From the NCBI GenBank assembly GCA_013387215.1, contig WARW01000023.1, positions 1-45,207 of the forward strand: 45,207 bases of DNA, written 5' to 3'. Below are positions 9,304-45,179 of the stretch, in pieces. Source of the DNA: Patescibacteria group bacterium (lineage in GTDB: Bacteria; Patescibacteriota; Microgenomatia; UBA12405). The position numbers and the translations under genes are program-made. Positions within the stretch are counted from its first letter, which is position 1. Every line of letters begins with the position of its first letter. Under the pieces are notes generated by a model that was not told where the DNA came from, made no database searches, and was given only the letters and a program-made list of their open reading frames with translations.

Positions 9304-9330
9304 TTATTATCTACACGCTATAATAAACAC

Positions 9331-9924: not shown

Positions 9925-9926
9925 AT

Positions 9927-14059: not shown

Positions 14060-14984
14060 CATTTCGCTTTCGATTGTCATTCTTAACTACAATTCTGGTA
14101 ACTATTTGACTCAATGTATAGAAAGCATAACCAAGTCAAATCTTAATGATTACAAAATTGAGACGCTAATTGTCGATAATAATTCTAGCGATGAATCTTT
14201 TAAACAAGCACAAGCAATAAAAAGCCACAATCCAAACATTTGTCTTAAATTCTTGCCTCTGAAAAATAATCTCGGTTTCGCACATGGAAATAATCAAGGT
14301 GTAAAAGAAATTTCTCCAGAAGCTAAATATGTATTATTTTTGAATCCCGATACAATTGTCGAAGCTGACACTTTAAAAGGAATGATAGATTTTTTTGAGA
14401 ATAATTCCAAAGTAGATGCTGCAACTTGCTTTCTAACTTTAGCTTTAACAGGTAAGATGCAACCTGAATGTCATCGCGGCTTTCCAACTCCCTGGCGATC
14501 ATTTTGCCACTTTTCTGGACTTTCTAAAATATTTCCTCATTCAAGAGCTTTTGCAGGCTACTTTTTGGGACATTTAGATCTAAGTAAAATTCATCAAATT
14601 GAAGCTTGTGTCGGTGCATTTCTGATGCTCAAAAAAGAGGTGGGTGAATCTATTGGGTGGTGGAATGAAAAATATTTCTTTTATGGTGAAGACCTTGATT
14701 TTTGCTATAAACTTAAGCAGTTTAACTACAAACTCTTTTTTAATCCTAAATTTAGGGTAACTCATTTTCAGGGAGTTTCTTCAGGCTTAATTTCACAAAC
14801 AAAACATATTACTCACGCTTCCAGAGAAACAAAATTATTAACAGCTAAAGCTAGTACTGAAGCTATGAGAATTTTTTATCAGGAAAATTTAATAAACAAC
14901 TACCCTGGATTTTTAAAACCGATCATTATGTCTGGAATTAAACTGTTGGAAATTCAAAGAATCATAAAAGCTAGATATTTGTAA
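14046..14984 (+). CDS. Glycosyltransferase family 2
   Basis: LSIVILNYNSGNYLTQCIESI, VDNNSSDES, LGFAHGNNQGVKEISPEAKYVLFLNPDT, EKYFFYGEDLDFCYKL. Confidence 0.92.
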   Translation: MKKNNISLSIVILNYNSGNYLTQCIESITKSNLNDYKIETLIVDNNSSDESFKQAQAIKSHNPNICLKFLPLKNNLGFAHGNNQGVKEISPEAKYVLFLNPDTIVEADTLKGMIDFFENNSKVDAATCFLTLALTGKMQPECHRGFPTPWRSFCHFSGLSKIFPHSRAFAGYFLGHLDLSKIHQIEACVGAFLMLKKEVGESIGWWNEKYFFYGEDLDFCYKLKQFNYKLFFNPKFRVTHFQGVSSGLISQTKHITHASRETKLLTAKASTEAMRIFYQENLINNYPGFLKPIIMSGIKLLEIQRIIKARYL

Positions 14985-15011
14985 TTCTTAATAAATTTAT
15001 TAGAATGAATT

Positions 15012-15614
15012 ATGAAACTACAAAAAAATAAGATAAAACTAATTGCCATTGCTGTAATTGTTCTAGTTATAATAATAAGTCTAGGGATATTTTTAAAAAA
15101 ACCTAAAACAACAAAAACCGCAGACACATCTAATATTCCAAAAACTGTTGAACAAAGTGATAAAAAAGTTCCCACTCGAAGAGAATATGTAAAAAATGAA
15201 CCTCTCACATACTCCATTGACGCTGCTATCGCTACTTCCAGTAAAACCAATGCAGCATTTGACTACACAGCCACTAAACTAAAATCAATGGCTGATGAAT
15301 GTGGCACTCAGCCTAAGGTAGGCTACTTCGAAAAGTTAATTACCAAATTCAACAATGTAAATAAAACTGTTTACACTTTTAAGCATACTGGAAACAATCA
15401 AGAAGGAGTTTATACTTTAACACTTTTACCAAATAAACCAGCATATATTTCGTTAGATCAATTCAAAAAAGATTTTAACGTTTGTTCAACCAGTGGGAAC
15501 GCTTATCCAATAATGTTAAACAGTAGATGGCTTTTATTCGGAAGTCCATGTGGATCAAACAGTGTTTGTGCTGAGATCGAAAAAGTCCTCAAACCTACTT
15601 TGAAACTAAATTAG
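15012..15614 (+). CDS. Hypothetical secreted/membrane-anchored protein
   Basis: N-terminal TM anchor LIAIAVIVLVIIISLGIFL then polar linker and a soluble domain with several Cys; no recognised family. Confidence 0.6.
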   Translation: MKLQKNKIKLIAIAVIVLVIIISLGIFLKKPKTTKTADTSNIPKTVEQSDKKVPTRREYVKNEPLTYSIDAAIATSSKTNAAFDYTATKLKSMADECGTQPKVGYFEKLITKFNNVNKTVYTFKHTGNNQEGVYTLTLLPNKPAYISLDQFKKDFNVCSTSGNAYPIMLNSRWLLFGSPCGSNSVCAEIEKVLKPTLKLN

Positions 15615-15648
15615 TTTCAATAATTCTCATTCTCCAGTAAAATAGGGC

Positions 15649-16749
15649 ATGGAACATATTGTAATTGACGCTCGTTTGTATGGTTCAAAACATACTGGTA
15701 TTGGCCGTTACACAAAAAATCTTCTATTCGCCTTATCTCAAAATCCTAATTTCAAAAAATATAAATTTTCTTTAATTATTTATAAAAACCTAGAATCAGA
15801 AATTAAAAAAGATCTAGGAGATAACTATAATTACATTCCTGTAAACATTCCTCACTACTCACTCCAAGAACAAATTCTTTTACCATTCATTTTGTACCGA
15901 TTAAAACCAGATCTTGTTCATTTTACTCACTTCAATAAACCAATTTTATATTTTGGCAACTCAATAGTCACAATTCACGATCTTATTAAACATTTTTTCA
16001 AAGGTAAAGAAACTACAACTAAAAATCCCTTTTTCTATTGGTTAAAATATTTTGCTTATTTAACACTTGTTAACCTTGTAATTAAAACAAATAACATTAT
16101 TGTTCCTAGTAATTTTTGGAGAGATTATTTGATTGAAAAATTCAAGGTCAATCCACAAAAAATAACCACTACCTACGAAGCTGTCGATAATAACTTTATT
16201 ACTACTAAAAAAACTATTAACAAAGCTCAGGATTATATAATTTATACTGGAAACTTATATCCGCATAAAAATATAAACATAATATTTGAAGCTCTTAAAA
16301 ACTTACCAAATATCAAATTAAAAATTATTTGCGCCAGAAGTTATTTCAGTAAAAGGCTTGAAATCTGTATAAAAGAAATGAAAATTGAAAAACAAGTTGA
16401 ATTTTTAGGATACCTAGATGACAAAGAATTTGTAAATATATACCAAAAAGCAATTGCTTTAGTTCATCCTTCCTTAATGGAAGGCTTCAGCTTAACTGGA
16501 CTGGAAGCAATGGCATTAAATTGCCCAGTGATTGCTTCAAATAGCAGCTGCTTGCCTGAAATTTATGGAAAATCAGTTTTATATTTTGATCCATTAAATT
16601 CTAATGAATTAATAGACCAAATTAATAAACTTCAAAAATCCTCTTCGTTAAGACAAAAATTAATTGAATTAGGCCATAAGCAAGTTTCAAAATATTCTTG
16701 GCAAAAAACTGTTGATTTAACACTCCAAATTTATCAAAAAAATATATAA
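15649..16749 (+). CDS. Glycosyltransferase, GT4-like
   Basis: IDARLYGSKHTGIGRYTKNLLFAL, TIHDLIKHFF, YTGNLYPHKNINIIFEAL, HPSLMEGFSLTGLEAMALNCPVIASNSSCLPEI. Confidence 0.92.
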   Translation: MEHIVIDARLYGSKHTGIGRYTKNLLFALSQNPNFKKYKFSLIIYKNLESEIKKDLGDNYNYIPVNIPHYSLQEQILLPFILYRLKPDLVHFTHFNKPILYFGNSIVTIHDLIKHFFKGKETTTKNPFFYWLKYFAYLTLVNLVIKTNNIIVPSNFWRDYLIEKFKVNPQKITTTYEAVDNNFITTKKTINKAQDYIIYTGNLYPHKNINIIFEALKNLPNIKLKIICARSYFSKRLEICIKEMKIEKQVEFLGYLDDKEFVNIYQKAIALVHPSLMEGFSLTGLEAMALNCPVIASNSSCLPEIYGKSVLYFDPLNSNELIDQINKLQKSSSLRQKLIELGHKQVSKYSWQKTVDLTLQIYQKNI

Positions 16750-17861
16750 TGGAAAACGAACCAAAAGTTGCACTTTTTTATGATTGGTTAAACCAGTGGG
16801 GTGGTGCCGAAAAAGTATTGCTCGATTTGATCAAAATATACCCCCACGCTCCAGTTTTTACCTTAGTTCACGACCCAAAGAAAACAACCTGGCTTCCCAA
16901 ATCCACAAAAATTATTACCTCTTCCATAAACAAACTTCCTTTAGCTAAAAAAAATCCCATTTTATACACTCCTTTTTATCCATTTTCTCTTGAACAATTT
17001 GATTTTTCTTCTTATGATATTGTCATCTCCACAACTTCAACAATTGGACATTGTTTAATCACTCATCCTCAAACTCTTTCAGTATGTTATTTTCATAATA
17101 TAAATCGTTACGTATATAAAACCCCAAAAAACTTTCTCTTGCTTAAGCCACTTTTAAACATATACAAAAAATTTGATCATATTTTTTCAAAACGTCCTGA
17201 TTATATTTTTTGCAACTCTAAAACTGTTCAGCAGAGGATACATGATGAATACAAATTAGAGTCTAAAATTATTTATCCTGGTGTTGATACAAGTTTTTTT
17301 ACCCCATTATCATCTGACAATTTTCAGAGTGATTATTTTTTGGTTGTTTCCAGACTCGTTCCGCATAAAAAAATTGCAATTGCTATAAAAGCTTGCCATC
17401 AGTTAAATTTAAAATTAAAAATTGTTGGGGATGGCCGTGATAAAAAAAATCTTTCAAAAATAATTGACAAAATAAATGATAATAATATTGAATTACTAGG
17501 TAAAGTTTCAGATCAGGAATTATCCAGGTTATATCAAAACTGCCAAGCACTAATTTGCCCCCAAGAAGAAGATTTTGGATTAACACCAATCGAATCTCAA
17601 GCATGCGGTAAACCCGTCATTGCTTTTAAGAAAGGCGGAATAACAGAAACAGTAATTAATGGTAAGACAGGAATATTTTTCAAGCACCAAACCACCAAAT
17701 CTCTAGTCCAAGCACTTAAGTTATTTACTAAAACAAAATTTTTACCCAAAAATTGCATTGAAAACTCTCATAGATTTTCAAACCTTATTTTTATGCTAAA
17801 CTTTAAACAATCAGTTGAAGATTTATGGAAAACACACCTAAAGAAAATCACTACATTGTAA
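16749..17861 (+). CDS. Glycosyltransferase, GT4-like (WbaZ-like)
   Basis: KVALFYDWLNQWGGAEKVLLDLIKIYPHAPVFTLVHD, YFLVVSRLVPHKKIAIAIKAC, CPQEEDFGLTPIESQACGKPVIAFKKGGITETV. Confidence 0.92.
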   Translation: MENEPKVALFYDWLNQWGGAEKVLLDLIKIYPHAPVFTLVHDPKKTTWLPKSTKIITSSINKLPLAKKNPILYTPFYPFSLEQFDFSSYDIVISTTSTIGHCLITHPQTLSVCYFHNINRYVYKTPKNFLLLKPLLNIYKKFDHIFSKRPDYIFCNSKTVQQRIHDEYKLESKIIYPGVDTSFFTPLSSDNFQSDYFLVVSRLVPHKKIAIAIKACHQLNLKLKIVGDGRDKKNLSKIIDKINDNNIELLGKVSDQELSRLYQNCQALICPQEEDFGLTPIESQACGKPVIAFKKGGITETVINGKTGIFFKHQTTKSLVQALKLFTKTKFLPKNCIENSHRFSNLIFMLNFKQSVEDLWKTHLKKITTL

Positions 17862-18922
17862 TTCTTTGCGGTGGAACGGGTCCCAGACTTTGGCCACTAT
17901 CTCGCGCTTCAAACCCCAAACAATTTCTTGAATTATTTGACAAAGGTAGTCTCCTTGAACAAACCATTAAAAGAGCTATCAAAATTACTTCACCCCGAAA
18001 TATTTTTATCATTACTAATAAAAACTATTTCGATAAAGTCAGCAGCATTTCAAAAAAATATATTTCTGAGAAAAATATTATTTCTGAACCACTTAAGAAA
18101 AATACTACTCTCGCCATCCTTTATGCTTCTGCTGTAATTAAAAACAAGAATCCAAACGCTATTATTTCTACTTTTCCCTCCGATCACTATATAAAAAATA
18201 TAGATAAATTTAAAAGAGATATTATTAAAGCCAAAACCATTGCTAAAAAGAACGATTCCATTGTCACTATTGGAATTAAACCAACCAGCCCAAATCCAGC
18301 TTACGGCTATATTCTTCCTAAACATAAAATTGAAAATTATTTAACCGTCGATCAGTTTATTGAAAAACCCAATCCTGAAAATGCCAAAAAACTGATTAAA
18401 AGAAACGCTTTTTGGAATTCAGGTATTTATACATTTTCCATATCTACATTAGAAACAGAATTTAATAAATTGCAGCCTGAATTTTACAAATCCTTTTTCT
18501 TGTTGGAACAAAATCTCAATAATAAACAAAAAATTGAAGATCTTTATTTAAATTCACAAGATATAGCCATCGATAAATCTATTTCTGAAAAAAGTCATCA
18601 TATGCTTGTTATACAAGCTACATTTGATTGGAGTGATGTTGGAGAGTGGAATGCTATTTATTTCAATTCTAATAAAGATAAAAATGGAAACGCATTAATT
18701 AATAAAAACACCCAATTTTCGGTCCTTAATTCATCAAATTGTTTAATATCAGGAGCAAGTGATAAACTGATTGGGCTTGTTGGCGTTAATAATTTAGCCA
18801 TAATTGAAACTCCCGATGCCTTGCTTGTTTGCAATTTAGATGATAGTTTTAGTGTTAGAGATTTAGTTAGTTCAATTATTAAAAATAAAAGTACAGCATC
18901 CTATTTTTTAACTCAAAAATGA
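17825..18922 (+). CDS. manC: Mannose-1-phosphate guanylyltransferase-like nucleotidyltransferase
   Basis: YIVILCGGTGPRLWPLSRASNPKQFLELFDKGSLLEQT, STFPSDHYI, GYILPKHKIENYLTVDQFIEKPNPENAKK, WNSGIYTF. Overlaps the previous ORF by 37 nt. Confidence 0.9.
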   Translation: MENTPKENHYIVILCGGTGPRLWPLSRASNPKQFLELFDKGSLLEQTIKRAIKITSPRNIFIITNKNYFDKVSSISKKYISEKNIISEPLKKNTTLAILYASAVIKNKNPNAIISTFPSDHYIKNIDKFKRDIIKAKTIAKKNDSIVTIGIKPTSPNPAYGYILPKHKIENYLTVDQFIEKPNPENAKKLIKRNAFWNSGIYTFSISTLETEFNKLQPEFYKSFFLLEQNLNNKQKIEDLYLNSQDIAIDKSISEKSHHMLVIQATFDWSDVGEWNAIYFNSNKDKNGNALINKNTQFSVLNSSNCLISGASDKLIGLVGVNNLAIIETPDALLVCNLDDSFSVRDLVSSIIKNKSTASYFLTQK

Positions 18923-19596
18923 CCAAAGAAAATTCTGCTACATTAGCTTTAACCGCTTCAAAAGATCTAGGTTTTGATCTTTTTAAAAGAACCATAGATA
19001 TTTTTGGTTCTTTTTTTCTTCTTGTCATTTTTTCTCCGATTATTCTTATAACCAGCATAGTTGTAAAACAAACCTCACCTGGTCCAATTTTTTTTAGACA
19101 AAAACGAGTAGGTCAAAACAGCCGGCAGTTTTGGATGTATAAATTCAGATCTATGTATGTTGGTGATAATGACAAAAGACTTAAAGAAAATTATCCTGAA
19201 TTATGGAAAAAATACAAAGAAGCAGGTTGGAAATTACCAATGTGTGAAGATCCTCGAATTACACCGGTAGGTAAAATCATAAGATCATTAACTATCGATG
19301 AATTTCCTCAATTAGTTAACGTTCTAAAAGGGGATATGAGCTTAATTGGCCCAAGAGCCTATAGAGAAGAAGAATTAAAAGAATATGAAGAGAAATATCC
19401 ACACACTAAAAAATTTATAGAAGAAATTCGTTCAGTAAAACCAGGAATTACTGGACTTTGGCAGACATCTGGCCGAAATGACTTAACTTTCGAACAAAGA
19501 GCTAGACTTGACTCTTTTTATATTAGAAATAGATCTATTCTTCAAGAAATCAAAATCATTCTTAAAACTCCAATGGCTATGTTGTCACGTTGGTGA
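18919..19596 (+). CDS. Undecaprenyl-phosphate sugar phosphotransferase (bacterial sugar transferase, WcaJ/EpsL-like)
   Basis: FKRTIDIFGSFFLLVIFSPIILITSIVVKQTSPGPIFFRQKRVGQNSRQFWMYKFRSM, IDEFPQLVNVLKGDMSLIGPRAYREEEL, SVKPGITGLWQTSGRNDLTFEQRARLD. Confidence 0.95.
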   Translation: MTKENSATLALTASKDLGFDLFKRTIDIFGSFFLLVIFSPIILITSIVVKQTSPGPIFFRQKRVGQNSRQFWMYKFRSMYVGDNDKRLKENYPELWKKYKEAGWKLPMCEDPRITPVGKIIRSLTIDEFPQLVNVLKGDMSLIGPRAYREEELKEYEEKYPHTKKFIEEIRSVKPGITGLWQTSGRNDLTFEQRARLDSFYIRNRSILQEIKIILKTPMAMLSRW

Positions 19597-27196: not shown

Positions 27197-28522
27197 ATGC
27201 CAATCACTTCTATAAAATCTTTTATTCAAAAGTCTAAAAACTTTTTAATACATCAACCTAAAGGATTATTTTATAATCTTAAATACGGCTATCCAACTAA
27301 AAAATTAACTTTAATTGGTATTACTGGCACAGATGGCAAAACTACAACCTGTACTCTCATTTATGAAATCTTAAAAGAAGCTGGTTATAAAGTTGGAATG
27401 ATTAACACTATTGGCGCAAGAATAGGCGATAAAGAATATAATACCGGTCTACACACCACCAGCCCAGATCCAGCCAAACTTCAAGATTTATTTTCTCAGA
27501 TGGTCAAGGCAGGTATGACTCATGTGGTTTGTGAAGTCACTTCCCATGCTTTAGATCAGCACCGATTCTTTGGATGTAATTTTAAGATTTCTGCTATCAC
27601 CAACATTTCTCATGAACACCTTGATTACCATAAAACAATGGAAAACTATATTGCTTCAAAAGTAAAACTTTTCGAACAATCCCAACAGGCTGTTCTAAAC
27701 ATAGACGATGAATCATATAAACAAATTAAAGCTTCGATAAATATACCAATTACCACTTATGGAGTTAAAAAAGCTTGCGATTATCAAGCCAAAGAAATAA
27801 AACTTAATGACAAGAGTTTAAAATTTAAAGTCAACAAGTTATCTTTAGAAACTGACAGTAATTATTCTTATCAAGTCTATAATATTTTGACTGCTCTTGC
27901 GGTAACTGAAAAACTCGGAATTGACCCAAAAATAGTTGAAAAAGTCATTAAAAATTTTCCTGCAACAAAAGGTCGTCGAGAAGAATTTTCTAATGATTTA
28001 AAAATAAAAACTATTATTGATTTTGCACACACACCAGCCGCCCTCAAAAGTACTTTGTCTTCGTTAAAAGAAAATACAAAAGGAAATTTAATTGTTATTT
28101 TTGGCGCAACCGGTGGACGAGATGTCAGTAAAAGACCTTTGATGGGGAAAATTGTTTCTGAAATTGCCAATATTGCCATTATAACTTCTGATGACACTCG
28201 CAATGAAAAAATTGAAGATATTAACAAAGATATTATTAGCGGTATAGATCAAAAAAACGCCAGGTTTCTTGATCCAGAAAAACTTGAAACCAATTCTCAG
28301 ATTCTAAATGCGAGCAAAGAATCGAAAAACAATTTTACTTATTTTAATATTCCAAATCGCCAAGATGCATTTAATTTGGCAATTAAATTAGCCCAACCTG
28401 GAGACACTGTAATTGCCTGCGGCAAAGGCCACGAAACTACTATTTTACTTGGTAACACCGAATATCCGTGGTCCGAGTCTGAAGCCTATAGAACTGCCTT
28501 TAGATTTAAAAAAATAAAATAA
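27197..28522 (+). CDS. murE: MurE-family Mur ligase, short N-terminal domain
   Basis: IGITGTDGKTTTCTLIYEIL, TTSPDPAKLQDLFSQMVKAGMTHVVCEVTSHALDQHRFFGC, NISHEHLDYHKTMENY, VIACGKGHE. Confidence 0.88.
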   Translation: MPITSIKSFIQKSKNFLIHQPKGLFYNLKYGYPTKKLTLIGITGTDGKTTTCTLIYEILKEAGYKVGMINTIGARIGDKEYNTGLHTTSPDPAKLQDLFSQMVKAGMTHVVCEVTSHALDQHRFFGCNFKISAITNISHEHLDYHKTMENYIASKVKLFEQSQQAVLNIDDESYKQIKASINIPITTYGVKKACDYQAKEIKLNDKSLKFKVNKLSLETDSNYSYQVYNILTALAVTEKLGIDPKIVEKVIKNFPATKGRREEFSNDLKIKTIIDFAHTPAALKSTLSSLKENTKGNLIVIFGATGGRDVSKRPLMGKIVSEIANIAIITSDDTRNEKIEDINKDIISGIDQKNARFLDPEKLETNSQILNASKESKNNFTYFNIPNRQDAFNLAIKLAQPGDTVIACGKGHETTILLGNTEYPWSESEAYRTAFRFKKIK

Positions 28523-28523
28523 C

Positions 28524-29120
28524 ATGCCACAATTCAATATAGCCACTTCTCAAAATATTGAAGAAAACTACGAAAAGGGATTCTTGCCACAAAGAAACGA
28601 CAAAAATTTGTTTTATCAGGATTCAAGTTGCCGTTCCGACTTATCAATATTTCAACTGAACTCGGAAAATCGCCGTATAATCCGAAAAACAGAAAATTTT
28701 TCTTTCGAAAAAATATTTTTAAACGATTTTATATATGATATTGAACTTCAAAAAAAACTATATAGTTGGGTGAAAACCTTAGAATGGGATTTTCCAGTAA
28801 GCTCAATTAAAAATATTTTTACTAATCATATTTTTAACTATGTCTATGTTTGGAAAAATGAAGAATCAAAAATAATTGCCTATGCAGTATGTTATTTTTC
28901 CCCAACCATAAGCCACATTGCTTACGTTTTTTATGATCCAGAATATAGCCACGGCAATTTACCAATCCGTTTAGTGCTGCAGGTTATTGAAGATAGTCAA
29001 AAACTAGGTCTTAAATATTGTTATTTAGGCCGTTTTTCTAAAGAAACTGGTTATTATAAAAGAAATATGCCCGGATTCCAGTTTTTTGATAACAACCAAT
29101 GGGTAGAATATAATAGTTAA
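28524..29120 (+). CDS. Arginyl/leucyl-tRNA-protein transferase (Ate/Bpt)-like GNAT-fold protein
   Basis: FYQDSSCRSDLSIFQLNSENRRIIRKTENF resembles the Ate N-region; IAYVFYDPEYSHGNLPIRLVLQVIEDSQKLGLKYCYLGRFSKETGYYKRNMPGFQFFDNNQW resembles the Ate/Bpt C-region. Confidence 0.65.
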   Translation: MPQFNIATSQNIEENYEKGFLPQRNDKNLFYQDSSCRSDLSIFQLNSENRRIIRKTENFSFEKIFLNDFIYDIELQKKLYSWVKTLEWDFPVSSIKNIFTNHIFNYVYVWKNEESKIIAYAVCYFSPTISHIAYVFYDPEYSHGNLPIRLVLQVIEDSQKLGLKYCYLGRFSKETGYYKRNMPGFQFFDNNQWVEYNS

Positions 29121-29122
29121 TA

Positions 29123-30505
29123 ATGAATATTCATATAATCGGCATAGCTGGTGCTATGACTGCTTCACTAGCCAAAGAATTAAAGCGCCTCGGCCATCAA
29201 GTGACAGGATCTGATCAGGAAAAAATCTATCCACCAGTAAGTGATATTTTGAAAAATGCCGATATTAAAATTAATCGAAATCCAATTAGTAAAAATATTG
29301 ACTTAGTTATTGTTGGTTCATCTTTTAATTCATTCGAAAACACTAGACAAGAATTTGAAACAGTAAAGAGACTTGATCTTCCATATATTTCTGCAACCGA
29401 ATATATTGCCAAATATTTAGGTAAAAATAATTCAATTTTAGTTGCTGGTGCATATGGCAAAACTACTATTACTAGCCTTCTTTCTTGGATATTAATTAAT
29501 GCTGATTTTGATCCCAGTTATATGATCGGAGGAGACTTGGTAAACAATACCGACTCAACCAGAATCAGTAATTCAAACTGGTCTGTTATCGAAGCCGATG
29601 AATCAATTCATGGACTCGACCAAAAAGCTAAATTTTTATATTATCCTGTAAAATATTTACTCTTAACTTCAGCCGATTGGGAACATAAAGACAGCTACAA
29701 ATCAGAAGTTGAAAATTTATTAGCTTTTCAAAACTTAATTGAAAATATTCCAGAGGATGGGGTCTTAGTAATCAACTCTCGCGGATATTCTTGCAATAAT
29801 TTATCAAAATTTACCAAAGCAAAAGTCATCACTTACAATAACCAAGATTCTGATTATTATATTTCAAACGTATCCATTGAACAAAATCAGACTTTAATAA
29901 CCATCAACACTCCAACTTCTCCTATTTCTGTTAACACAGAATTATTAGGACAATTTAATTTTGAAAACATTTTAGCGGCGGTGGCTATGGCTGATTATCT
30001 TGGAATTGACAGACAAATTATTCAAGATTCTATTTCCAAATTTAAAGGTGTTAAACGCCGTATACAGTTGATTGAAAAAGTTGAAGACATTATATTTTTT
30101 GATGATTTTGCTCAATCAGCACCCAGAATAAAATCTACACTTGATGCCATAAAACTTCATTATCCTAATAATAATATAAAAGTATTTTTTCAGCCTCACG
30201 CTTCTTTTTTACAACATAAACAAGGTCTAAATAATTTAAATGATGCCTTTGCAAATGCCACAGAAGTGGTTTTAGGAAAGATTAGTTTTAGCCAAAAGAT
30301 AGATAAAAACAATCGAGTAACAGCATCAGATTTCTGTAGTGAAGTTGGTCAAAAGTTAATCTATTTACCTATCAATGAAGATATAGTTAATCACTACAAT
30401 CAAACCCTTAAACCTAAAGATATTTTAATATATATGAGTTCTGGTGGAATCGAAGGTTCAGAAATTATAAATTCAATAATTAATAATTTAAAAACAAATG
30501 TCTAG
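29123..30505 (+). CDS. MurC/Mpl-family Mur ligase
   Basis: MNIHIIGIAGAMTASLAKELKRLGHQVTGSDQEKIYPPVSDIL, VAGAYGKTTITSLLSWIL, VIEADES, KGVKRRIQLI, FQPHASFLQHKQGL. YPPVS and a modified QPH motif resemble Mpl. Confidence 0.82.
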   Translation: MNIHIIGIAGAMTASLAKELKRLGHQVTGSDQEKIYPPVSDILKNADIKINRNPISKNIDLVIVGSSFNSFENTRQEFETVKRLDLPYISATEYIAKYLGKNNSILVAGAYGKTTITSLLSWILINADFDPSYMIGGDLVNNTDSTRISNSNWSVIEADESIHGLDQKAKFLYYPVKYLLLTSADWEHKDSYKSEVENLLAFQNLIENIPEDGVLVINSRGYSCNNLSKFTKAKVITYNNQDSDYYISNVSIEQNQTLITINTPTSPISVNTELLGQFNFENILAAVAMADYLGIDRQIIQDSISKFKGVKRRIQLIEKVEDIIFFDDFAQSAPRIKSTLDAIKLHYPNNNIKVFFQPHASFLQHKQGLNNLNDAFANATEVVLGKISFSQKIDKNNRVTASDFCSEVGQKLIYLPINEDIVNHYNQTLKPKDILIYMSSGGIEGSEIINSIINNLKTNV

Positions 30506-31826
30506 ATACGTCATAACCGGTGGTAAACCCTTAAAAGGTGAAGTTTCAATTCGAGGAGCTAAAAATGCCAGTTATAAACAAATTATTGCCTCACTTTTGA
30601 GCGATAAAACAACTCAATTAACCAATGTTCCTCAAATATCTGATGTAAAAATAACTACTAGTATAGCTAAAAGTTTAGGTGCTGAAATTATTTATTGCGG
30701 TGAACATTGTATTGAAATTTGTACTCCTAAAATCACAAACTCTACTGTTCCTCGGGGTACTGGCGAAAAATCACGAACTTCTTTCATGTTTGCTGCCCCA
30801 TTATTAGCTAGAACTGGCACCGCTATTGTTCCAATACCAGGTGGAGATAAATTAGGCGCCAGACCTCTTGATAGACTTTTTGATTGTTTCGCTCAAATGA
30901 ATATTACTACCGAAGAAACAGAAAATTCTCTGATTTTTAAAACTACAGGCATAAAACCTACCAATTATTGTTTTCCGAAACCATCTCACACTGTTACCGA
31001 GGTTGTAATTATGACGGCTGCTCTAGCCAATGGTGAAACAATCCTAGACAATGCCGCCCTTGAACCGGAAATTGACGATCTTATCGAAATGTTAAATGAT
31101 ATGGGCGCCAAAATACAAAGAGATTTAAACGACCCAAAAAGAATTATTATCCAAGGCGTTCCTTGGTTAAATGGAACAAAACACCAAGTAATTTGTGATC
31201 GAAACGAAGCTGTTACTTTTGCTTGTGCTGCCTTAGCCACCAAAGGCTCGATTAGTATTTTAAGAATTGATCCAAAAATTATCAAAAGCTTTCTAGATAC
31301 TATTGAAAAAATGGGTGCTAAAGTGGAAACCGGCCGTGATGAAGTAACCGTAAGTTGGGTCAAACCTCTCAAAGCTATCGATATTGAAACCGAACCTGAA
31401 CCAGGATTTATGACCGATTGGCAGGCACTTTTTACAATCGTATTATCACAAGCCATAGGTTGCAGCTCCATAATTGAACGTGTATATCCAAGTCGTTTTC
31501 AACACATTAATAATCTTAAAATAATGGGAGCTAAGGTAAACTTTTTCAATCCAGAAGTTAGTGATCCCGCATCTTATTATCAATTTAATATTGAAAGTGA
31601 TAAGCCAGAATATTTTCATGGAGTAAAAATCTATGGACCTGCCAAACTCCAACCAGCCAAGTTCATTATTAACGATCTTCGGGCTGGTGCTTCAACTACA
31701 TTAGCTGCTCTAACTGCTGATGGAGAATCAATAATTGATGGAGTTGAATTTATCGAAAGGGGATATGAACGTTTAGCCGACCGTCTCTGCTCATTAGGTG
31801 CTAATATAGAATATATTAAAACATAA
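30498..31826 (+). CDS. murA: UDP-N-acetylglucosamine 1-carboxyvinyltransferase
   Basis: YVITGGKPLKGEVSIRGAKNASYKQIIASLL, PGGDKLGARPLDRLFD, EPGFMTDWQALFTIVLSQAIGCSSIIERVYPSRF, DLRAGASTTLAALTADG. Confidence 0.95.
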   Translation: MSRYVITGGKPLKGEVSIRGAKNASYKQIIASLLSDKTTQLTNVPQISDVKITTSIAKSLGAEIIYCGEHCIEICTPKITNSTVPRGTGEKSRTSFMFAAPLLARTGTAIVPIPGGDKLGARPLDRLFDCFAQMNITTEETENSLIFKTTGIKPTNYCFPKPSHTVTEVVIMTAALANGETILDNAALEPEIDDLIEMLNDMGAKIQRDLNDPKRIIIQGVPWLNGTKHQVICDRNEAVTFACAALATKGSISILRIDPKIIKSFLDTIEKMGAKVETGRDEVTVSWVKPLKAIDIETEPEPGFMTDWQALFTIVLSQAIGCSSIIERVYPSRFQHINNLKIMGAKVNFFNPEVSDPASYYQFNIESDKPEYFHGVKIYGPAKLQPAKFIINDLRAGASTTLAALTADGESIIDGVEFIERGYERLADRLCSLGANIEYIKT

Positions 31827-31832
31827 CAAACA

Positions 31833-32867
31833 ATGATTCACTTGTACTTAGGATTGCTCCTTTTTTCCTTCTTAACCACCAGTATCTTAGTGGTGCCTTT
31901 CATTAATTTACTTTATAAACTAAAGTTTCAAAGACAAAAACAGAAAACTTTGGATTTCCAGAATAAAAGAACTCCTATTTTCGATAAATTTCATAGCCAA
32001 AAGTCTGGCACTCCGGTTGGTGGTGGACTATTAATTATAGCCGCAGTTATAGTTCTTTTTGCCATACTTTTCCCAATTTTAAAATTTTCAAAAATATTTA
32101 TTTCTTCTAATTATCAAATCGACAAAGAATTATTAGTCATATTCTTTACCTTTATTAGCTTCGGACTTCTTGGTCTATATGATGATATAAATAAGTTCTT
32201 TGGATTTCAAAAAACCGGATTTTTCGGACTAAAAATGATCCATAAACTTTTTTTGCAAATATTTTTAGCTACAGCCATTTCTATGTTTATTTATTTTGGG
32301 CTTGGAATTAACTTTATTTATGTTCCATTTTTAGGTGCTATCAGCCTTGGTTTGTTTTACATCCCAGTCTCAATTCTTATCATTACCGGGTTTTCCAACT
32401 TCTTCAACATTACAGACGGTCTAGATGGTCTTTCTTGCGGTCTTTTAATGATCGCTTTATTTGCTTTTTGGTTCCTTTCTAGCAATTCGCTTGATACTCC
32501 AATTTCTGTTTTCCTCGCTTTATGGCTTGGCGCTCTTGTTGCCTTTTTATATTTCAATGTTTTTCCAGCAAGAATTTGGCTTGGAGATGTTGGATCTTTG
32601 TCTTTCGGAGCAACAATTGCAGTTATTGCCTTACTTCTAGGTAAAATAGTACCACTTCTCATTGTTGGTTCACCGTTTATTATTGAAGGACTAACCAGTG
32701 CAATTCAAATGTTGAGTAAAAAATACCTAGGAAGAAAAATATTTCCAGCCGCTCCAATTCATTTAACACTTCAACAAATTGGCTGGGAAGAACCAAAAAT
32801 TGTGACTCGGGCCTGGTTAGCTGGTATAATATTAGCTATATTTGGACTATGGTTGGGACTAAACTAA
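31833..32867 (+). CDS. mraY: Phospho-N-acetylmuramoyl-pentapeptide transferase
   Basis: GTPVGGGLLIIAAV, GLYDDINKFFGFQKTGFFGLKM, NFFNITDGLDGLSCGL, FPARIWLGDVGSLSFGATIAVIALLLGK, AAPIHLTLQQIGWEEPKIVTRAWL. Confidence 0.93.
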   Translation: MIHLYLGLLLFSFLTTSILVVPFINLLYKLKFQRQKQKTLDFQNKRTPIFDKFHSQKSGTPVGGGLLIIAAVIVLFAILFPILKFSKIFISSNYQIDKELLVIFFTFISFGLLGLYDDINKFFGFQKTGFFGLKMIHKLFLQIFLATAISMFIYFGLGINFIYVPFLGAISLGLFYIPVSILIITGFSNFFNITDGLDGLSCGLLMIALFAFWFLSSNSLDTPISVFLALWLGALVAFLYFNVFPARIWLGDVGSLSFGATIAVIALLLGKIVPLLIVGSPFIIEGLTSAIQMLSKKYLGRKIFPAAPIHLTLQQIGWEEPKIVTRAWLAGIILAIFGLWLGLN

Positions 32868-33526
32868 TACAATTTAAAGAAGTAATTAATCACTATCTTG
32901 GTTTACCTTATTGGCGCAACAAGCTAAAAGATGGCAAGGTAATTCAAGAAGGTATTTTGGGCGGAAAAGGTAATTGTCGTCAAATTGCCACAGAAACAAT
33001 TAAACTAGCTCAGAATCAAAACGTCGACATTACTAAATTAACCAACCAAGAGTTCTACAATTTTCAAAAAAAGAATCATATCGGCGTTGACTGTTCGGGG
33101 CTTGCATACAATCTTTTGGACGAATATTCCCAAATTTTAACGGAAAAAAGTATCTATGAAAAAGTTGTAGGAATAGATTCAAAACTTGGAGCCAGAAGAA
33201 TTTCTGCAAATATATTAACTTCTCCCATAAATTCAATACCTGTCGATAGCTATGACGATATTAAAACTGGGGACTTAATTAGAATGGACAATGGAAAACA
33301 TGTTGTGCTTGTTGTTGAAAAAAACGACAATATCATTACTTATGTCCATAGTAGTGAAAAAACAAAAATTCGAGGTGTTCATTATGGCACTATAGAAATA
33401 ACAAATCCTAAAAAAACCCTTGATTACCAAAAATGGTCAGACATAACCCTAAAAGATATTAACTACAATAAACTAATTTTCCCTAAAAAAGGGGACGGTA
33501 TCTACAGGCTAAAATGCCTTGCTTGA
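32849..33526 (+). CDS. NlpC/P60-like cysteine hydrolase
   Basis: NHIGVDCSGLAYNLLDEY (DCSG), KTGDLIRMDNGKHVVLVVEKNDNIITYVHSS (GDL...H); no obvious signal peptide. Confidence 0.65.
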   Translation: MVGTKLIQFKEVINHYLGLPYWRNKLKDGKVIQEGILGGKGNCRQIATETIKLAQNQNVDITKLTNQEFYNFQKKNHIGVDCSGLAYNLLDEYSQILTEKSIYEKVVGIDSKLGARRISANILTSPINSIPVDSYDDIKTGDLIRMDNGKHVVLVVEKNDNIITYVHSSEKTKIRGVHYGTIEITNPKKTLDYQKWSDITLKDINYNKLIFPKKGDGIYRLKCLA

Positions 33527-33528
33527 GT

Positions 33529-33696
33529 TTATTTTTCTTCAGTTAACTCTTTGTAATTAAGAGGTTCTATGGATAAAATTTCCACCTCAGTTCCACACTC
33601 AGGACATTCCAAAATATCACCAACCATCATTCCTTCTGGTTTGACAATTTCCGCCTTACAATCAGGACAAATTATTTGATTATTATTTTCTGCCAT
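33529..33696 (-). CDS. LysW-like amino-carrier / zinc-ribbon protein, 55 aa (not in ORF track)
   Basis: Manual minus translation MAENNNQIICPDCKAEIVKPEGMMVGDILECPECGTEVEILSIEPLNYKELTEEK; two CPxC motifs and VGDILECPECGTEVEILSIEPL match the LysW/ArgW pattern. Confidence 0.8.
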   Translation of the reverse strand: MAENNNQIICPDCKAEIVKPEGMMVGDILECPECGTEVEILSIEPLNYKELTEEK

Positions 33697-33738
33697 ATTT
33701 TCTTTAAAAAATTTATATAATTAGCTAAACTATATTAT

Positions 33739-34560
33739 ATGGCACCGACTCCTTTAATTAAATTAGAAAATATCTATCTTAAAAGAGAAGACTTAAACAC
33801 AACTGGTTCGGCTAAAGACAGAGCTATGTCTCTTCAAATTGACAGTTTAATAAAAAAGGGGATTAATAAAGCTGTTTTATCAAGTACTGGCAACGCCGCT
33901 CTCTCCGCTCTATATTTTTGTCAAAAAGCCAATATTGAATTAACTCTTTTTGTCTCTCCAAAAATTAATCCTCAAAAATTAGAAGAAATAAAAAAACTTA
34001 CATCAAATATTCAATTTTCCTTAAAACCAATTAGCGATGCCATAAAGTTTTCTAAAAAAGAATCTGCTTATCTTTTGAGACAATCCACCGACCCAATCGC
34101 TTTAATTGGTTACCAATCTATTGCTAAAGAATTGCAAGAACAACTACCTCAAATAACCAGTATTTTTATTCCAGTAGGTAGTGGCACCACCTTACTTGGT
34201 ATATCAGAAGCTTTAAGTCCAAATGTAAAGATATTTGCAGTTCAATCTTCGAACAACTGTCCGATTGCCAAACTTTTCGATACAAATTTTACTCCAGAAG
34301 AAGATTCTTTAACCGATGCTATTTCCGTAAAAGTTTTGCCATTAAAAAATCAAATTATTAATGCCATTAAAAACAGTAATGGTTCCGCTTTTGTTATCCA
34401 AAATAATGAAATTGAGAGTGCACAAAAAGAACTATCCAAACACAATGTAATTACATCACCAGAAGGTGCTCTAGCTTTAGCGGGATTACACAAAGCGGTA
34501 CTCAACAATTACGATATTGGATCCTACCCAGTTGTTCTTTTAACCGGAGTCCGAAGATGA
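33739..34560 (+). CDS. PLP-dependent enzyme, fold type II (threonine synthase/cysteine synthase-like)
   Basis: LKREDLNTTGSAKDRAM (PLP Lys), VLSSTGNAALSALYFC, IFIPVGSGTTLLGISEAL, TSPEGALALAGL. Confidence 0.85.
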   Translation: MAPTPLIKLENIYLKREDLNTTGSAKDRAMSLQIDSLIKKGINKAVLSSTGNAALSALYFCQKANIELTLFVSPKINPQKLEEIKKLTSNIQFSLKPISDAIKFSKKESAYLLRQSTDPIALIGYQSIAKELQEQLPQITSIFIPVGSGTTLLGISEALSPNVKIFAVQSSNNCPIAKLFDTNFTPEEDSLTDAISVKVLPLKNQIINAIKNSNGSAFVIQNNEIESAQKELSKHNVITSPEGALALAGLHKAVLNNYDIGSYPVVLLTGVRR

Positions 34561-35738
34561 TTAATATCGATCTTTTTAATCAGCTAAATCAAAGCAATTA
34601 TACTTTTTACTTCTTAGTTGTAGACGAATTTTTGGATATTGAAATGTATCCTCAATTAAATAAATTTCATTTAATTTATGCCTACAAAAATGTTAAACAT
34701 CCATTGTTTAAAGCCAACAATGTTCCATATTTTTGTCTTGAAGAACAAGGTGAAATTTTATCTGAAAAAAATACTGGAAAATTATTATCTCACCCAAAAG
34801 TAATTGAATACATAAATTCTACTAAATTAGAAACAGTTCCAGCAATTATTCCTTTTAAACCATCCTCTAAAATTGATTTTATATGTCGACAAAACAATTG
34901 GATCGAAATCAGCAATCCGGGTCCTCTTAATAGATATTTAGAAGATAAAATAAAGTTTCCTGAAATTTGCGAAAAGTTTAATATACCAATTATTCCTTAT
35001 AAAATAGACACTTTTACAAAAGAAAATTTTGAGAAATACCAAAATCTTTATGACCCGCATTTAGTTATACAAACTCATTTTGGCTGGGCTGGCAACAGTA
35101 CCTTTAATGCCACTGCTTGGGTAGATATAGAAAATTTAATCCCTCAAGGAGCTATTGTTAAATACTCGCCTTATTTAAAAGGATATTCACTTTTAAACAA
35201 TTGTTGTCTAACAAAATATGGTTTAGTTCAAAGCCCTCCAGCACTTCAATATACAGGAGTCCCTCCATTTACCAATAACCCTTTTACAACCGTTGGTCGC
35301 CAATGGCCTTGTCTTGCACCCCTCCCAATTCAACAAAAAATAAGATCTATTACTGAAGACTTTGCCAAAATTTTGAAGAAACTTGAGTATAAAGGTTTTT
35401 TTGGATTAGATTTTTTTATTAGCGATCGTGAAATATATTTATTAGAATGTAATCCACGTCTTACTGCTTCTTTTGCTTTTTACACTAAAATTGAAGTAAA
35501 AGAAAATATCACTCCGCTTTTTTTTATGCACATAGCAGAATTTTTAAATTTAAATTATAAAATTGATATACAAGAAGAACAGCAGCGATTTTATAATGAA
35601 AATATAATCGGTTCCGAATTAACTCAAAAAAATTTAGATAATAACACCATAAGAAAAATTAATGATTTTATTGTTTTTTCCGAATCTATCGAACCCATAA
35701 TTATCAAGCCAAAAATAGTTAATATGTTTTCATTTTAA
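34557..35738 (+). CDS. ATP-grasp family ligase
   Basis: LEDKIKFPEICEKFNIPIIPYKI, LVIQTHFGWAGNSTF, YKGFFGLDFFISDREIYLLECNPRLTASF. Confidence 0.82.
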   Translation: MINIDLFNQLNQSNYTFYFLVVDEFLDIEMYPQLNKFHLIYAYKNVKHPLFKANNVPYFCLEEQGEILSEKNTGKLLSHPKVIEYINSTKLETVPAIIPFKPSSKIDFICRQNNWIEISNPGPLNRYLEDKIKFPEICEKFNIPIIPYKIDTFTKENFEKYQNLYDPHLVIQTHFGWAGNSTFNATAWVDIENLIPQGAIVKYSPYLKGYSLLNNCCLTKYGLVQSPPALQYTGVPPFTNNPFTTVGRQWPCLAPLPIQQKIRSITEDFAKILKKLEYKGFFGLDFFISDREIYLLECNPRLTASFAFYTKIEVKENITPLFFMHIAEFLNLNYKIDIQEEQQRFYNENIIGSELTQKNLDNNTIRKINDFIVFSESIEPIIIKPKIVNMFSF

Positions 35739-35740
35739 CT

Positions 35741-36919
35741 GTGAAGAAAAAATCAACCTTGATTTTCTATATTCTCAGTTTAATCGCTATCGGTTTGGTT
35801 TTTATTTCTATCTCTTCCTTAACCGAAGCTAACTCCACCATGGGTGACAAGTATTACTTTCTAAAAAAACAGTCTATTTGGCTTGTGATTGGATTTATTA
35901 GTTTCTATATAACTTCAAAAATTAAACTCGATACAATCAAACGTTTTTCACTACCTCTTTATATTGGAACATTAATTATTTTGGCTGTTGTTTTAATTCC
36001 TAGCATCGGGAATCAAGCACTTGGAGCTAGACGTTGGATAAGTATTGGAGGACTTGGCGGAATTCAGCCATCTGAAATTCTCAAACTAACTTCAATTATT
36101 TATTTTTCGTTTTTATTTTCCATCAAAGAAAAAAGGACTATAAAAAATTTAATAATATTTTTAGGTATTCCATTTTTACTGATCATTCTTGAACCAAACC
36201 TTAGTACTGCTATGCTGGTCTCAGCTATCGTTATTTCTATTTATTATTTATCGGGTGGAGAAATAATGCCCTTATTTACTCTCTGTTCAGTGGTAATACT
36301 ATTAAGCGTAATTTTAGTGGTTTTTTCTCCTTACAGATCAGCTCGTTTAAAAACTCTTTTAAACCCGGAACAAGGCCAAAACACTTCTTCGTATCATAGT
36401 AATCAAATAATTTTAGCCTTATCTTCCGGAGGATTATTTGGAAAAGGCTTTGCTAATTCAGATCAGAAATATCGTTTTTTACCTAAAATTTCTACCGATT
36501 CTATATTGGCAGTTATTGGAGAAGAAACAGGTTTTGTTGGTGTTACAGGAATAATATTATTGTATGTTTATTTAATTGCTTATTTAATTAAATTAAGTCA
36601 ATCCCTTAACGATAGTTTTCAATCTCTTCTGGTTGCCAGTGTCGCTTGCTGGATCGCATTCCAAAGTCTAATTAATATTTCTGCAATTGTTGCTATCATT
36701 CCTTTAACTGGAGTACCTCTGCCTTTTATTTCATATGGAGGCTCTTCTTTATTAACTTTACTAACAGCCCTCGGTTTAGTCCGTAATATCGAAAAACAAA
36801 ACAATTTATTGATATACTCTAAGAGTAATGAAAAACCCCTTACTAAAGAAAATTATCATTATCACCGGCACTCACTTAACACCGGCAGTCGAACTCATCA
36901 ATCAACTGAAAGCAGATAA
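35741..36919 (+). CDS. ftsW: SEDS protein, FtsW-like
   Basis: LGARRWISIGGLGGIQPSEILKLTSIIYFSF, EPNLSTAMLVSA, ALSSGGLFGKGFANSDQKYRFLPK, IPLTGVPLPFISYGGSSLLTLLTALGLV. GTG start. Confidence 0.92.
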   Translation: MKKKSTLIFYILSLIAIGLVFISISSLTEANSTMGDKYYFLKKQSIWLVIGFISFYITSKIKLDTIKRFSLPLYIGTLIILAVVLIPSIGNQALGARRWISIGGLGGIQPSEILKLTSIIYFSFLFSIKEKRTIKNLIIFLGIPFLLIILEPNLSTAMLVSAIVISIYYLSGGEIMPLFTLCSVVILLSVILVVFSPYRSARLKTLLNPEQGQNTSSYHSNQIILALSSGGLFGKGFANSDQKYRFLPKISTDSILAVIGEETGFVGVTGIILLYVYLIAYLIKLSQSLNDSFQSLLVASVACWIAFQSLINISAIVAIIPLTGVPLPFISYGGSSLLTLLTALGLVRNIEKQNNLLIYSKSNEKPLTKENYHYHRHSLNTGSRTHQSTESR

Positions 36920-37934
36920 AAATTCTGATTGGGATATTCACTACATTGGCCGACGTTTCAACTCAAGTGTTGATGATACTCCTTCTATCGAATCTCAAAT
37001 AATTCCAAAGCTTGATGTAAAATTTTATCCGATTGACTGTGGCAAATACGATCGTAAATGGTTGCCAAACACTATCAAAGGCATTCCTCAAACTATTAAG
37101 GGTTTATTTAATGCTTTTAATTTAGTCAGAAAAATTAAACCAAATATTGTCGTATCTTTTGGTGGGTATGTTTCTGTTCCTGTCGTAATAAGCAGTTGGT
37201 TTACAAAAACTCCATCAATTACTCACGAACAGACTTTAACTAATAGTTTAACCACAAAGATCAACAGTTATTTCGTCTCTAAAGTTGCCCTTTCATTTAA
37301 TAATCCTGATCAAATAAAATTATTGCCGTCAAAAAAAGTAGTCATTACTGGAAATCTATTAAGAGCTGATATTTACAAGTCAGAATCAAAACACTTTAAA
37401 AAACTTATTGATCTAAAAAAACATCCTTCAATCATTTATATAACAGCAGGCAATCAAGGTTCACATATTATTAACACCACTATTAAATCCGTTTTGAAAG
37501 ATTTAAAAGATTTTGTAGTTATTCACCAAACTGGACAAGCTGAATTTCCTGAATATAAATCTCTATCTGAAAAATACAAAAATTATTATCCGTTCGAATA
37601 CATAAACTTATCCGATATTGGTTGGATTTTTAATAATTCAAAAATTATTATTAGTCGTTCTGGTGCAAACACTTCTCAAGAAATCGTCAGTTTAAACAAA
37701 AATTCAATTCTTATTCCTCTCCCAAAAAGCCAACAAAACGAACAAGAATTAAACGCCTTTTGGGTTAAAAAACAACTTCCTCAAAACACTATTGTTATTT
37801 CCCAAGAAACATTAACACCAGAATTGTTACTTGAAAACATTAATAAATTCAACAAAATTTCTAGTCCATCTATAAAAAATATAAATAATTCTACAAATTT
37901 AAATTTATTAAAGCTCATAAATGAAACTAATTAA
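36828..37934 (+). CDS. murG: UDP-GlcNAc:undecaprenyl-PP-MurNAc-pentapeptide GlcNAc transferase
   Basis: IIITGTHLTPAVELINQL, KIKPNIVVSFGGYVSVPVVISSWFTKTPSITHEQTLTNSLTTKI, VVITGNLLRADI, ISRSGANTSQEIV. Confidence 0.9.
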   Translation: MKNPLLKKIIIITGTHLTPAVELINQLKADKNSDWDIHYIGRRFNSSVDDTPSIESQIIPKLDVKFYPIDCGKYDRKWLPNTIKGIPQTIKGLFNAFNLVRKIKPNIVVSFGGYVSVPVVISSWFTKTPSITHEQTLTNSLTTKINSYFVSKVALSFNNPDQIKLLPSKKVVITGNLLRADIYKSESKHFKKLIDLKKHPSIIYITAGNQGSHIINTTIKSVLKDLKDFVVIHQTGQAEFPEYKSLSEKYKNYYPFEYINLSDIGWIFNNSKIIISRSGANTSQEIVSLNKNSILIPLPKSQQNEQELNAFWVKKQLPQNTIVISQETLTPELLLENINKFNKISSPSIKNINNSTNLNLLKLINETN

Positions 37935-44183: not shown

Positions 44184-45179
44184 ATGTCTAGGAATTTTTG
44201 GCTACCGGTTTTAATAAGCATTCTTGTTTTATTTTGTATCAACATGCTTATGATAAGCTCGGTAGCCCCATCGGTTTTCTGGAAACAACTTTTTGCCTGG
44301 GTAGTAGGCGTCGGGCTCTTTTTTGTTGGTAAACAAATTAACCCAAAACAAATTATGCCATACAAATGGCTAATATTTGCTATCTGCTGCTTTCTTTTAT
44401 TTCTTCCCATTATTTTAAACAATATAACTCGTGGTTCCCGCCGTTGGATTGATGTTGGCCCAACTACCATTCAACCATCTGAAGTTGCCAAACCATGGCT
44501 GATGTTGTTTCTTGCCAACTCCACCTTTCCAATCGCTCACTTTATTCCATTCATGATTATCATGATGCAGCCGGATCTTGGGAGTGCTATTTCTGTTCTA
44601 TTTCTTGCTGTTCCCAATGTTCTCTATAATAAAAAGTTACTTCAATTTGTGTTAATGGGATCTTTAGTTTTTATTTTAGTTTCACCTTTAATCTATAATT
44701 ATGTTTTGCATGATTATCAAAAGCACCGAATCGTCAACTTTCTTAATCCCAATTCCGATCCTTTAGGAAAGGGTTATAATGTCATCCAATCGAAAATAGC
44801 CATAGGTTCTGGAGGAATTTTTGGGAAGGGCTACAAAAAAGGTACCCAAGGTCAATTGTTATTTTTACCCGAAAAACACACCGATTTTATGTTTGCTACC
44901 ACCGGAGAAGAATTAGGTCTTCTTGGTATTTTAATTATAATTTCTTCTTACTATTTTTTAATAAAAACTTTAATCGACAAAGCTTATTCAACAACAAACC
45001 GAGCTCTGTTTATATTTACTCTAGGCATTTCATTTCAGATTTGGATGCAGGCATTCATTAATATAGGTATGAATATCGGAGTGCTGCCAGTAACTGGAAT
45101 TCCTCTGCCTTTTATATCAGTAGGCGGCTCATCGTTAATGGCTCTTTTATTTTCCCTTGGAATTATTTATTCTTCTTAA
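44184..45179 (+). CDS. rodA: SEDS protein, RodA-like
   Basis: RRWIDVGPTTIQPSEVAKPWLMLFLA, QPDLGSAISVLFLA, GSGGIFGKGYKKGTQGQLLFLPEKHTDFMFATTGEELGLLG, LPVTGIPLPFISVGGSSLMALLFSLG. Confidence 0.93.
   Translation: MSRNFWLPVLISILVLFCINMLMISSVAPSVFWKQLFAWVVGVGLFFVGKQINPKQIMPYKWLIFAICCFLLFLPIILNNITRGSRRWIDVGPTTIQPSEVAKPWLMLFLANSTFPIAHFIPFMIIMMQPDLGSAISVLFLAVPNVLYNKKLLQFVLMGSLVFILVSPLIYNYVLHDYQKHRIVNFLNPNSDPLGKGYNVIQSKIAIGSGGIFGKGYKKGTQGQLLFLPEKHTDFMFATTGEELGLLGILIIISSYYFLIKTLIDKAYSTTNRALFIFTLGISFQIWMQAFINIGMNIGVLPVTGIPLPFISVGGSSLMALLFSLGIIYSS

Follow-up and report, generated by a model that had tools for sequence, protein, structure and literature searches.

A LysW-type carrier protein with a C-terminal lysine and its possible role at the start of the peptidoglycan stem peptide in Patescibacteria

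The peptidoglycan/division (dcw) cluster in Shapirobacteria (Patescibacteria) contains three adjacent genes for a small LysW-like carrier protein, a PLP enzyme, and an ATP-grasp ligase. This arrangement raises the question of what a carrier protein might do among genes for cell wall precursors, for which the UDP-MurNAc peptide route (MurC, MurD, MurE, and MurF) is regarded as near universal and is a textbook drug target. We examined the locus in a 45,207-nucleotide stretch of contig WARW01000023.1 (the window) and in related genomes. The reading that we favor, with a probability of about one-half, is that the cassette is a carrier-protein pathway to the start of the peptidoglycan stem peptide.

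The dcw genes in the window are in the order RsmH, FtsI, MurE, arginyltransferase-like protein, 'MurC', MurA, MraY, NlpC/P60 peptidase, carrier (reverse strand), PLP enzyme, ATP-grasp ligase, FtsW, MurG, FtsA, and FtsZ. MurA, MraY, FtsW, MurG, FtsA, and FtsZ were named by sequence inspection alone. The features that enter into the discussion are as follows.

27197..28522, + strand: MurE (third-residue ligase) with no N-terminal domain; NF001126 379.7 bits, cut-off 373; P-loop at residue 43
28524..29120, + strand: arginyl-tRNA-protein-transferase-like (ATE_C) protein; PF04377 34.3 bits, cut-off 25
29123..30505, + strand: Mpl-type UDP-MurNAc ligase ('MurC'); best PDB match Mpl 3hn7
30498..31826, + strand: MurA (context, by inspection); homologue at the same position in relatives
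31833..32867, + strand: MraY (context, by inspection); cassette neighbor conserved in relatives
32849..33526, + strand: NlpC/P60 peptidase with no evident export signal; PF00877 22.1 bits, just below the cut-off of 23
33529..33696, - strand: LysW-type carrier of 55 amino acids with two CxxC pairs and a ...TEEK C-terminus; PF21344 and PDB profile
33697..33738, no strand: 42-bp gap common to the divergent carrier and PLP genes; from the sequence
33739..34560, + strand: PLP enzyme of fold type II (PALP), threonine-synthase-like, 273 amino acids; PF00291 160 bits
34557..35738, + strand: ATP-grasp carboxylate-amine ligase, 393 amino acids; PF02655 ATP-grasp_3 above cut-off
35741..37934, + strand: FtsW and MurG (context, by inspection); also found after the ATP-grasp gene in almost every relative from the order

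The initial annotation had located the trio inside a peptidoglycan/division cluster, with the carrier gene divergent by 42 bp, and both the coordinates and the dcw context agree with this. The PLP gene starts at 33739, 42 bp from the carrier gene, and overlaps the ATP-grasp gene (34557-35738). The gap at 33697..33738 is a possible shared promoter region of the carrier and PLP genes. The cluster has partners beyond the trio that the initial annotation did not include, namely, the NlpC/P60 peptidase (32849), the aminoacyl-tRNA-transferase-like protein (28524), and the Mpl-type 'MurC' (29123). Elsewhere in the window, a second FtsW/RodA-family protein is encoded near the end (44184-45179; cross-matches), and a long run of genes (3796-19596) lies upstream of RecO, GlyRS, and the dcw cluster. 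The last gene of that run (18919), the sole one identified, encodes an undecaprenyl-phosphate sugar transferase.

The 55-amino-acid protein (MAENNNQIICPDCKAEIVKPEGMMVGDILECPECGTEVEILSIEPLNYKELTEEK) had been described as LysW-like, and the profile searches point to LysW rather than to a generic zinc ribbon. It scored 40.5 bits against Pfam PF21344 (Zn_ribbon_LysW; cut-off 27), and a profile of its relatives matched LysW 3wwl first among PDB entries (3.6e-12), with 5k2m next and 3vpb also matched. It scored below the cut-offs of the NCBIfam LysW equivalogs (32.5 versus 53.2 for TIGR01206 and 33.5 versus 75 for NF041070), which fits the altered C-terminal tail. LysW is loaded at the C-terminal Glu of EDWGE (PMC10433800). 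The possibility raised earlier that the attachment residue differs here is supported by an invariant C-terminal Lys in place of EDWGE/Glu, which was found in 70 of 70 distinct cassette-adjacent carriers, compared with 7.2% of the open reading frames of the same loci. Most carriers end in -EEK, and the others end in -ETK, -EQK, -VEK, -VQK, -DEK, or -DEGK. A single weak match to the carrier profile that ends in TPV (L213) was a false positive, located elsewhere in a locus that has a true Lys-ended carrier. The terminal Lys is the predicted loading site; if so, an amine would replace the carboxyl that LysW offers. The ordinary LysW/ArgW pathway to Lys or Arg was rejected because the tail and the partner enzymes differ.

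The 55-amino-acid protein might instead be a zinc ribbon with a structural or regulatory role and no carrier function, as the weak scores that it receives from many zinc-ribbon families could suggest. However, LysW was the best family in both Pfam and the PDB, and a WWE3 copy (L080) that has lost the zinc cysteines retains the length, the position, and the terminal Lys. We regard a zinc-ribbon function as highly improbable.

The ATP-grasp ligase is the predicted loading enzyme for the carrier. It retains the invariant motifs ExK, D, and ExN and scored 91 bits against NF005096, under the cut-off. Pfam and NCBIfam scans gave no match to the LysX family, and the C-terminal GSWGR motif is absent from the sequence. 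The structural model (pLDDT 92.6) matches the folds of PurK, biotin carboxylase, and an ATP-grasp peptide ligase, and thus the substrate cannot be read from the fold. Homologues of 490 to 500 amino acids in six genomes (G063, G064, G065, G101, G172, and G245) have no adjacent carrier or PLP gene and were excluded from the cassette count. In five loci (L071, L073, L075, L077, and L078), such a relative stands beside a protein of similar size with an LGMNxRN start and a secreted-looking protein. This carrier-less, PLP-less locus is a separate conserved system.

No PALP-family protein other than the PLP enzyme is encoded in the genome. The enzyme's PLP Lys (SAKDR) and its S(S/T)GN motif, with Ser/Thr before Gly-Asn, are conserved in the alignment. 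The enzyme is predicted to be a racemase or epimerase of carrier-bound Glu. Fold-type-II racemases are known for Ser and Asp, and we know of none for Glu. The closest PDB relatives are threonine synthases, which argues against the Glu-racemase reading; serine and aspartate racemases come next.

The initial annotation had named co-location of the three genes in relatives as one of its checks, and neighborhood comparison showed them together throughout the order and in distant Patescibacteria. The relatives are mainly Candidatus Shapirobacteria; the more distant ones are Gottesmanbacteria, WWE3, and Dojkabacteria, all of which are Patescibacteria. Within the order, 38 of 44 genomes have the ATP-grasp gene. 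Nearly every locus fetched from the order shows the arrangement nlpC-lysW(reverse)-PLP-ATPgrasp-ftsW-murG, with the divergent layout of the carrier and PLP genes preserved. The three genes of the trio again stand together in distant Patescibacteria, near mraY, murG, ftsW, or Mur ligases. Families f61 and f80 have the ATP-grasp, nlpC, mraY, ATE-like, Mpl-type ligase, carrier, and PLP genes in one cluster. No kinase, reductase, aminotransferase, or M20 hydrolase (LysZ/Y/J/K) was found among the neighbors that could be identified.

The distribution of glutamate racemase and MurD was compared in a sample of 80 Patescibacteria genomes, 57 of which were picked for carrying the ATP-grasp gene. The cassette was counted only where it was seen directly (n=40), and a real MurI or MurD was defined by E<1e-35, a threshold set in this analysis. 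MurI was found in none of the 40 cassette genomes and in 14 of the 40 others (p=3e-5); at the family level p was 0.0024, although the genomes are related and mostly MAGs and family-level counts are no phylogenetic test. MurI was also absent from 14 of the 23 genomes without the ATP-grasp gene, so its absence alone says little. In the genome from which the window comes, neither MurI nor Alr was found. Alr was considered as the enzyme that the cassette replaces and was rejected, its association being weak (7/40 cassette genomes versus 16/40 others; family level p=0.55). It was not found in the tested genomes of the order, with one exception. Six of seven relatives in the genus have Ddl, which was not found in the window's own genome, though that genome has MurF.

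MurD and the arginyltransferase-like (ATE-like) gene exclude each other. Of the 80 genomes, 34 carry the ATE-like gene and 35 carry MurD, and no genome has both (p=2.5e-13). By family, the ATE-like gene was found in 11 and MurD in 33, with none in common (p=1.3e-6). The ATE-like gene was not found in any of the 23 genomes without the ATP-grasp gene. The cassettes fall into two classes. In class 1 (G062, G100, G130, G378, and G412), MurD is present and lysW is its immediate neighbor in all five genomes. In class 2, which includes the window, MurD is absent and the ATE-like enzyme is usually present. Four cassette genomes (G001, G366, G390, and G399) have neither gene. The carrier was not found near the pieces read in two genomes with the ATE-like gene (G245 and G348), and G157 was viewed in part. 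The MurD of one carrier-less genome that has MurI (G064; L206:8852-10318) is closer to the carrier-adjacent MurDs of class 1 than other MurDs are.

ATE enzymes transfer amino acids to N-terminal Asp/Glu, and the ATE-like protein has their ATE_C domain. Its match to the full-length equivalog NF002346 was 33.5, against a cut-off of 170. The best match to its AlphaFold model (pLDDT 88.5) was ATE1, followed by MprF, aminoacyl-PG synthases (aaPGS), and FemX, all of which are aminoacyl-tRNA dependent. The protein is predicted to add a tRNA-borne amino acid, L-Ala in our model, to carrier-bound Glu.

Only three Mur ligases were found in the window's own genome: MurE and the Mpl-type 'MurC' in the window and MurF elsewhere. 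MurD was not found. The window 'MurC' has GSD..IYPPVS, a DxxxKF insert, and an MSSGG tail and has lost the HR..R residues with which MurC binds L-Ala. The 'MurC' proteins of class 2 have the corresponding features (GSD..(Y/F)PP.S, an insert before KF.Y, an MSSGG or GSHGFRG tail, and loss of HR..R). The MurC-like proteins beside MurD in L188, L190, L201, L205, and L206 are canonical, L188 nonetheless having the insert. Because the window protein has HGLDQKAK at the position of the strict Mpl motif (S/T)AFFDKRSK, and scores 184.8 of 388.7 bits for TIGR01081, we describe it as Mpl-like and not as Mpl. Das et al. identified 3hn7 as Mpl, gave the L-Ala-binding residues of MurC, and reported weak use of L-Ala-D-Glu (PMC3060825); the Psychrobacter Mpl turned over tripeptide at 260 and L-Ala-D-Glu at 1.4 per min, at differing substrate concentrations (PMC3060825). 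The Mpl-type ligase is predicted, on the basis of its sequence features, to join a peptide rather than L-Ala to UDP-MurNAc.

MurE and MurF proteins that lack the usual N-terminal UDP-binding domain were observed in the window (27197-28522) and elsewhere (L083:575-1918; L205). In place of the domain, some of the MurFs carry hydrophobic segments at the N-terminus. These truncated enzymes may work on a peptide that is either free or bound to the membrane. They were rejected as a part of the cassette because the same truncation occurs in cassette-less genomes (L205 and L193).

Enzymes of the NlpC/P60 family cleave after gamma-D-Glu. All full-length copies of the cassette peptidase retain (D/E)CSG (DCSG in the window) and a downstream His, and by eye no export signal is obvious at their starts. 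Of the residues that form the gamma-D-Glu site of YkfC, Tyr226 is kept in the window's order and Trp228 is replaced by Phe; the Tyr is lost in several distant copies. YkfC and DPP VI release L-Ala-gamma-D-Glu from Lys/DAP peptides (PMC2954226), and the predicted role of the cassette peptidase is to cut the product off the carrier. Three fusions join genes of the cassette: ATP-grasp with NlpC/P60 (L109), Mpl-type ligase with NlpC/P60 (L079), and ATE-like protein with Mpl-type ligase (L112). Position and fusions tie the cytosolic NlpC/P60 peptidase to the MurD-less cassette class.

From these patterns we infer a sequence of chemical steps and the identities of the amino acids involved. The ATP-grasp ligase would load L-Glu onto the carrier by bonding its gamma-carboxyl to the amine in the side chain of the C-terminal Lys. 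The alpha-amine and alpha-carboxyl of the bound Glu would stay free, so that the PLP enzyme could racemize it to D-Glu in place of MurI. In lineages like that of the window, the ATE-like enzyme would then draw on Ala-tRNA to add L-Ala to the bound Glu at its free amine. The cytosolic NlpC/P60 peptidase would free L-Ala-D-Glu and the carrier, and the Mpl-type ligase would attach the dipeptide to UDP-MurNAc, with MurE and MurF acting next. MurD would not be needed because the Mpl-type ligase would add the whole peptide. In lineages with MurD, the loading, racemization, and release steps would supply D-Glu to the MurD that is encoded beside the carrier gene. The model would account for the absence of MurI from cassette genomes, for MurD and the ATE-like gene never occurring together, for the position of class 1 MurD beside the carrier gene, and for the Mpl-type ligase. 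It leaves the source of D-Ala (D-Ala-D-Ala) unexplained, as the window's own genome has no Alr and no Ddl. The odds are about even that much of the Patescibacteria assembles L-Ala-D-Glu with aminoacyl-tRNA on the C-terminal Lys of a LysW-like protein, as a replacement for both glutamate racemase and MurD. The initial annotation had suggested a route to a non-standard amino acid for cell wall precursors. The link to the wall is strongly upheld; the non-standard amino acid is not, as the phylogenetic profile indicates ordinary D-Glu or L-Ala-D-Glu made by a non-standard route.

Other explanations need to be weighed against this one. The Mpl-type ligase and the NlpC/P60 peptidase might process murein peptides of the host or of the cell itself, with MurD and MurI lost because peptide is imported and with the carrier trio unrelated. 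Mpl and YkfC are indeed recycling enzymes (PMC3060825, PMC2954226), Patescibacteria genomes are reduced, and the near-complete lack of Alr in the tested genomes of the order fits such dependence. However, scavenging gives no account of why MurD loss nearly always accompanies the carrier cassette and the ATE-like gene, nor of the ATP-grasp/NlpC fusion or the carrier-adjacent MurD of MurD-bearing lineages. MurE is also retained, yet an imported tripeptide would make it needless. We therefore consider recycling or scavenging unlikely.

Another unlikely reading, the one nearest to the idea of the initial annotation, is that the trio supplies the third stem position with an unusual amino acid, either a diamino acid or a cross-bridge residue, whether by PLP beta-replacement on the Lys side chain or by ATP-grasp addition of a branch, as with Aslfm. 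The nearest PLP relatives (threonine synthase and SbnA) do perform beta/gamma-replacement, and Aslfm is a known ATP-grasp ligase for D-Asp cross-links (as cited in PMC2922099). This reading explains neither why MurI is strictly absent nor why MurD and the ATE-like gene exclude each other, and the carrier of class 1 adjoins MurD, not MurE. A different polarity of loading is a little more doubtful still: the alpha-carboxyl of the terminal Lys would be activated and amino acids added at the C-terminus, as in pearlin-type chemistry, and then clipped off as a free amino acid or dipeptide. Carrier-peptide chemistry of that polarity is known (PMC9303977), and the Lys is always strictly C-terminal. 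However, the invariance of the Lys is less well explained, and a Glu added in this way would have an acylated alpha-amine, which would put it out of reach of both a PLP racemase and an ATE-type transferase.

If the side-chain-loading model is correct, some Patescibacteria start the wall peptide on a carrier protein, where its first two residues are built with an amino acid supplied by tRNA; this would explain genomes that seem unable to make or add D-Glu. It would also widen the range of LysW-type carriers, with amine-ended carriers for the wall and carboxyl-ended carriers for Lys/Arg synthesis. The predictions, which are genome based, are readily testable in vitro with a few small proteins. 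A search of the open-licence literature on LysW in relation to peptidoglycan, on MurD and glutamate racemase in Patescibacteria, and on carriers of D-glutamate found no description of such a system. The Lys ends of all 70 carriers, the MurI-free cassette genomes, and the two MurD/ATE-like classes are new here.

Comparison with known systems shows which parts are shared and which are different. The canonical MurI-MurC-MurD route has the same presumed product, UDP-MurNAc-L-Ala-D-Glu, and the same dcw location, with MurE and MurF following. However, the genomes considered here have no MurI, mostly no MurD, and an Mpl-type ligase for MurC, and the carrier, PLP enzyme, ATP-grasp ligase, NlpC/P60 peptidase, and ATE-like enzyme are added. 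Peptidoglycan recycling with Mpl and YkfC also combines an Mpl-type ligase with a cytosolic gamma-D-Glu-type peptidase, but here the ligase and a peptidase predicted to be of that type are linked by fusions and position to a carrier, an ATP-grasp ligase, and an aminoacyl-tRNA transferase, and the ligase is the sole UDP-MurNAc ligase of the genome. MurD2/MurL of Xanthomonas place D-Glu in the stem peptide independently of MurI by epimerizing UDP-MurNAc-L-Ala-L-Glu, with no carrier and no tRNA. The route proposed here would likewise be MurI independent but would use both.

ATE1/Bpt, MprF, and the Fem transferases share the fold of the ATE-like protein, which matches the ATE_C family, and here too the amino acid is presumed to go to the amine of an acidic residue. 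Unlike their genes, the ATE-like gene here lies in a cell wall operon, is fused to the Mpl-type ligase in one genome, and is exclusive with MurD. LysW/LysX and ArgW/ArgX of Thermus and archaea likewise have a small acidic zinc-ribbon carrier with presumed C-terminal loading, whose gene is paired with that of an ATP-grasp ligase. Their carriers end in EDWGE/Glu and offer a carboxyl, whereas those described here end in Lys and would offer an amine. The ligase here is of the ATP-grasp_3/PRK06524 type without the GSWGR motif, and the neighbors are a PLP enzyme, an NlpC/P60 peptidase, and Mur genes in place of LysZ/Y/J/K, which were not seen among those identified.
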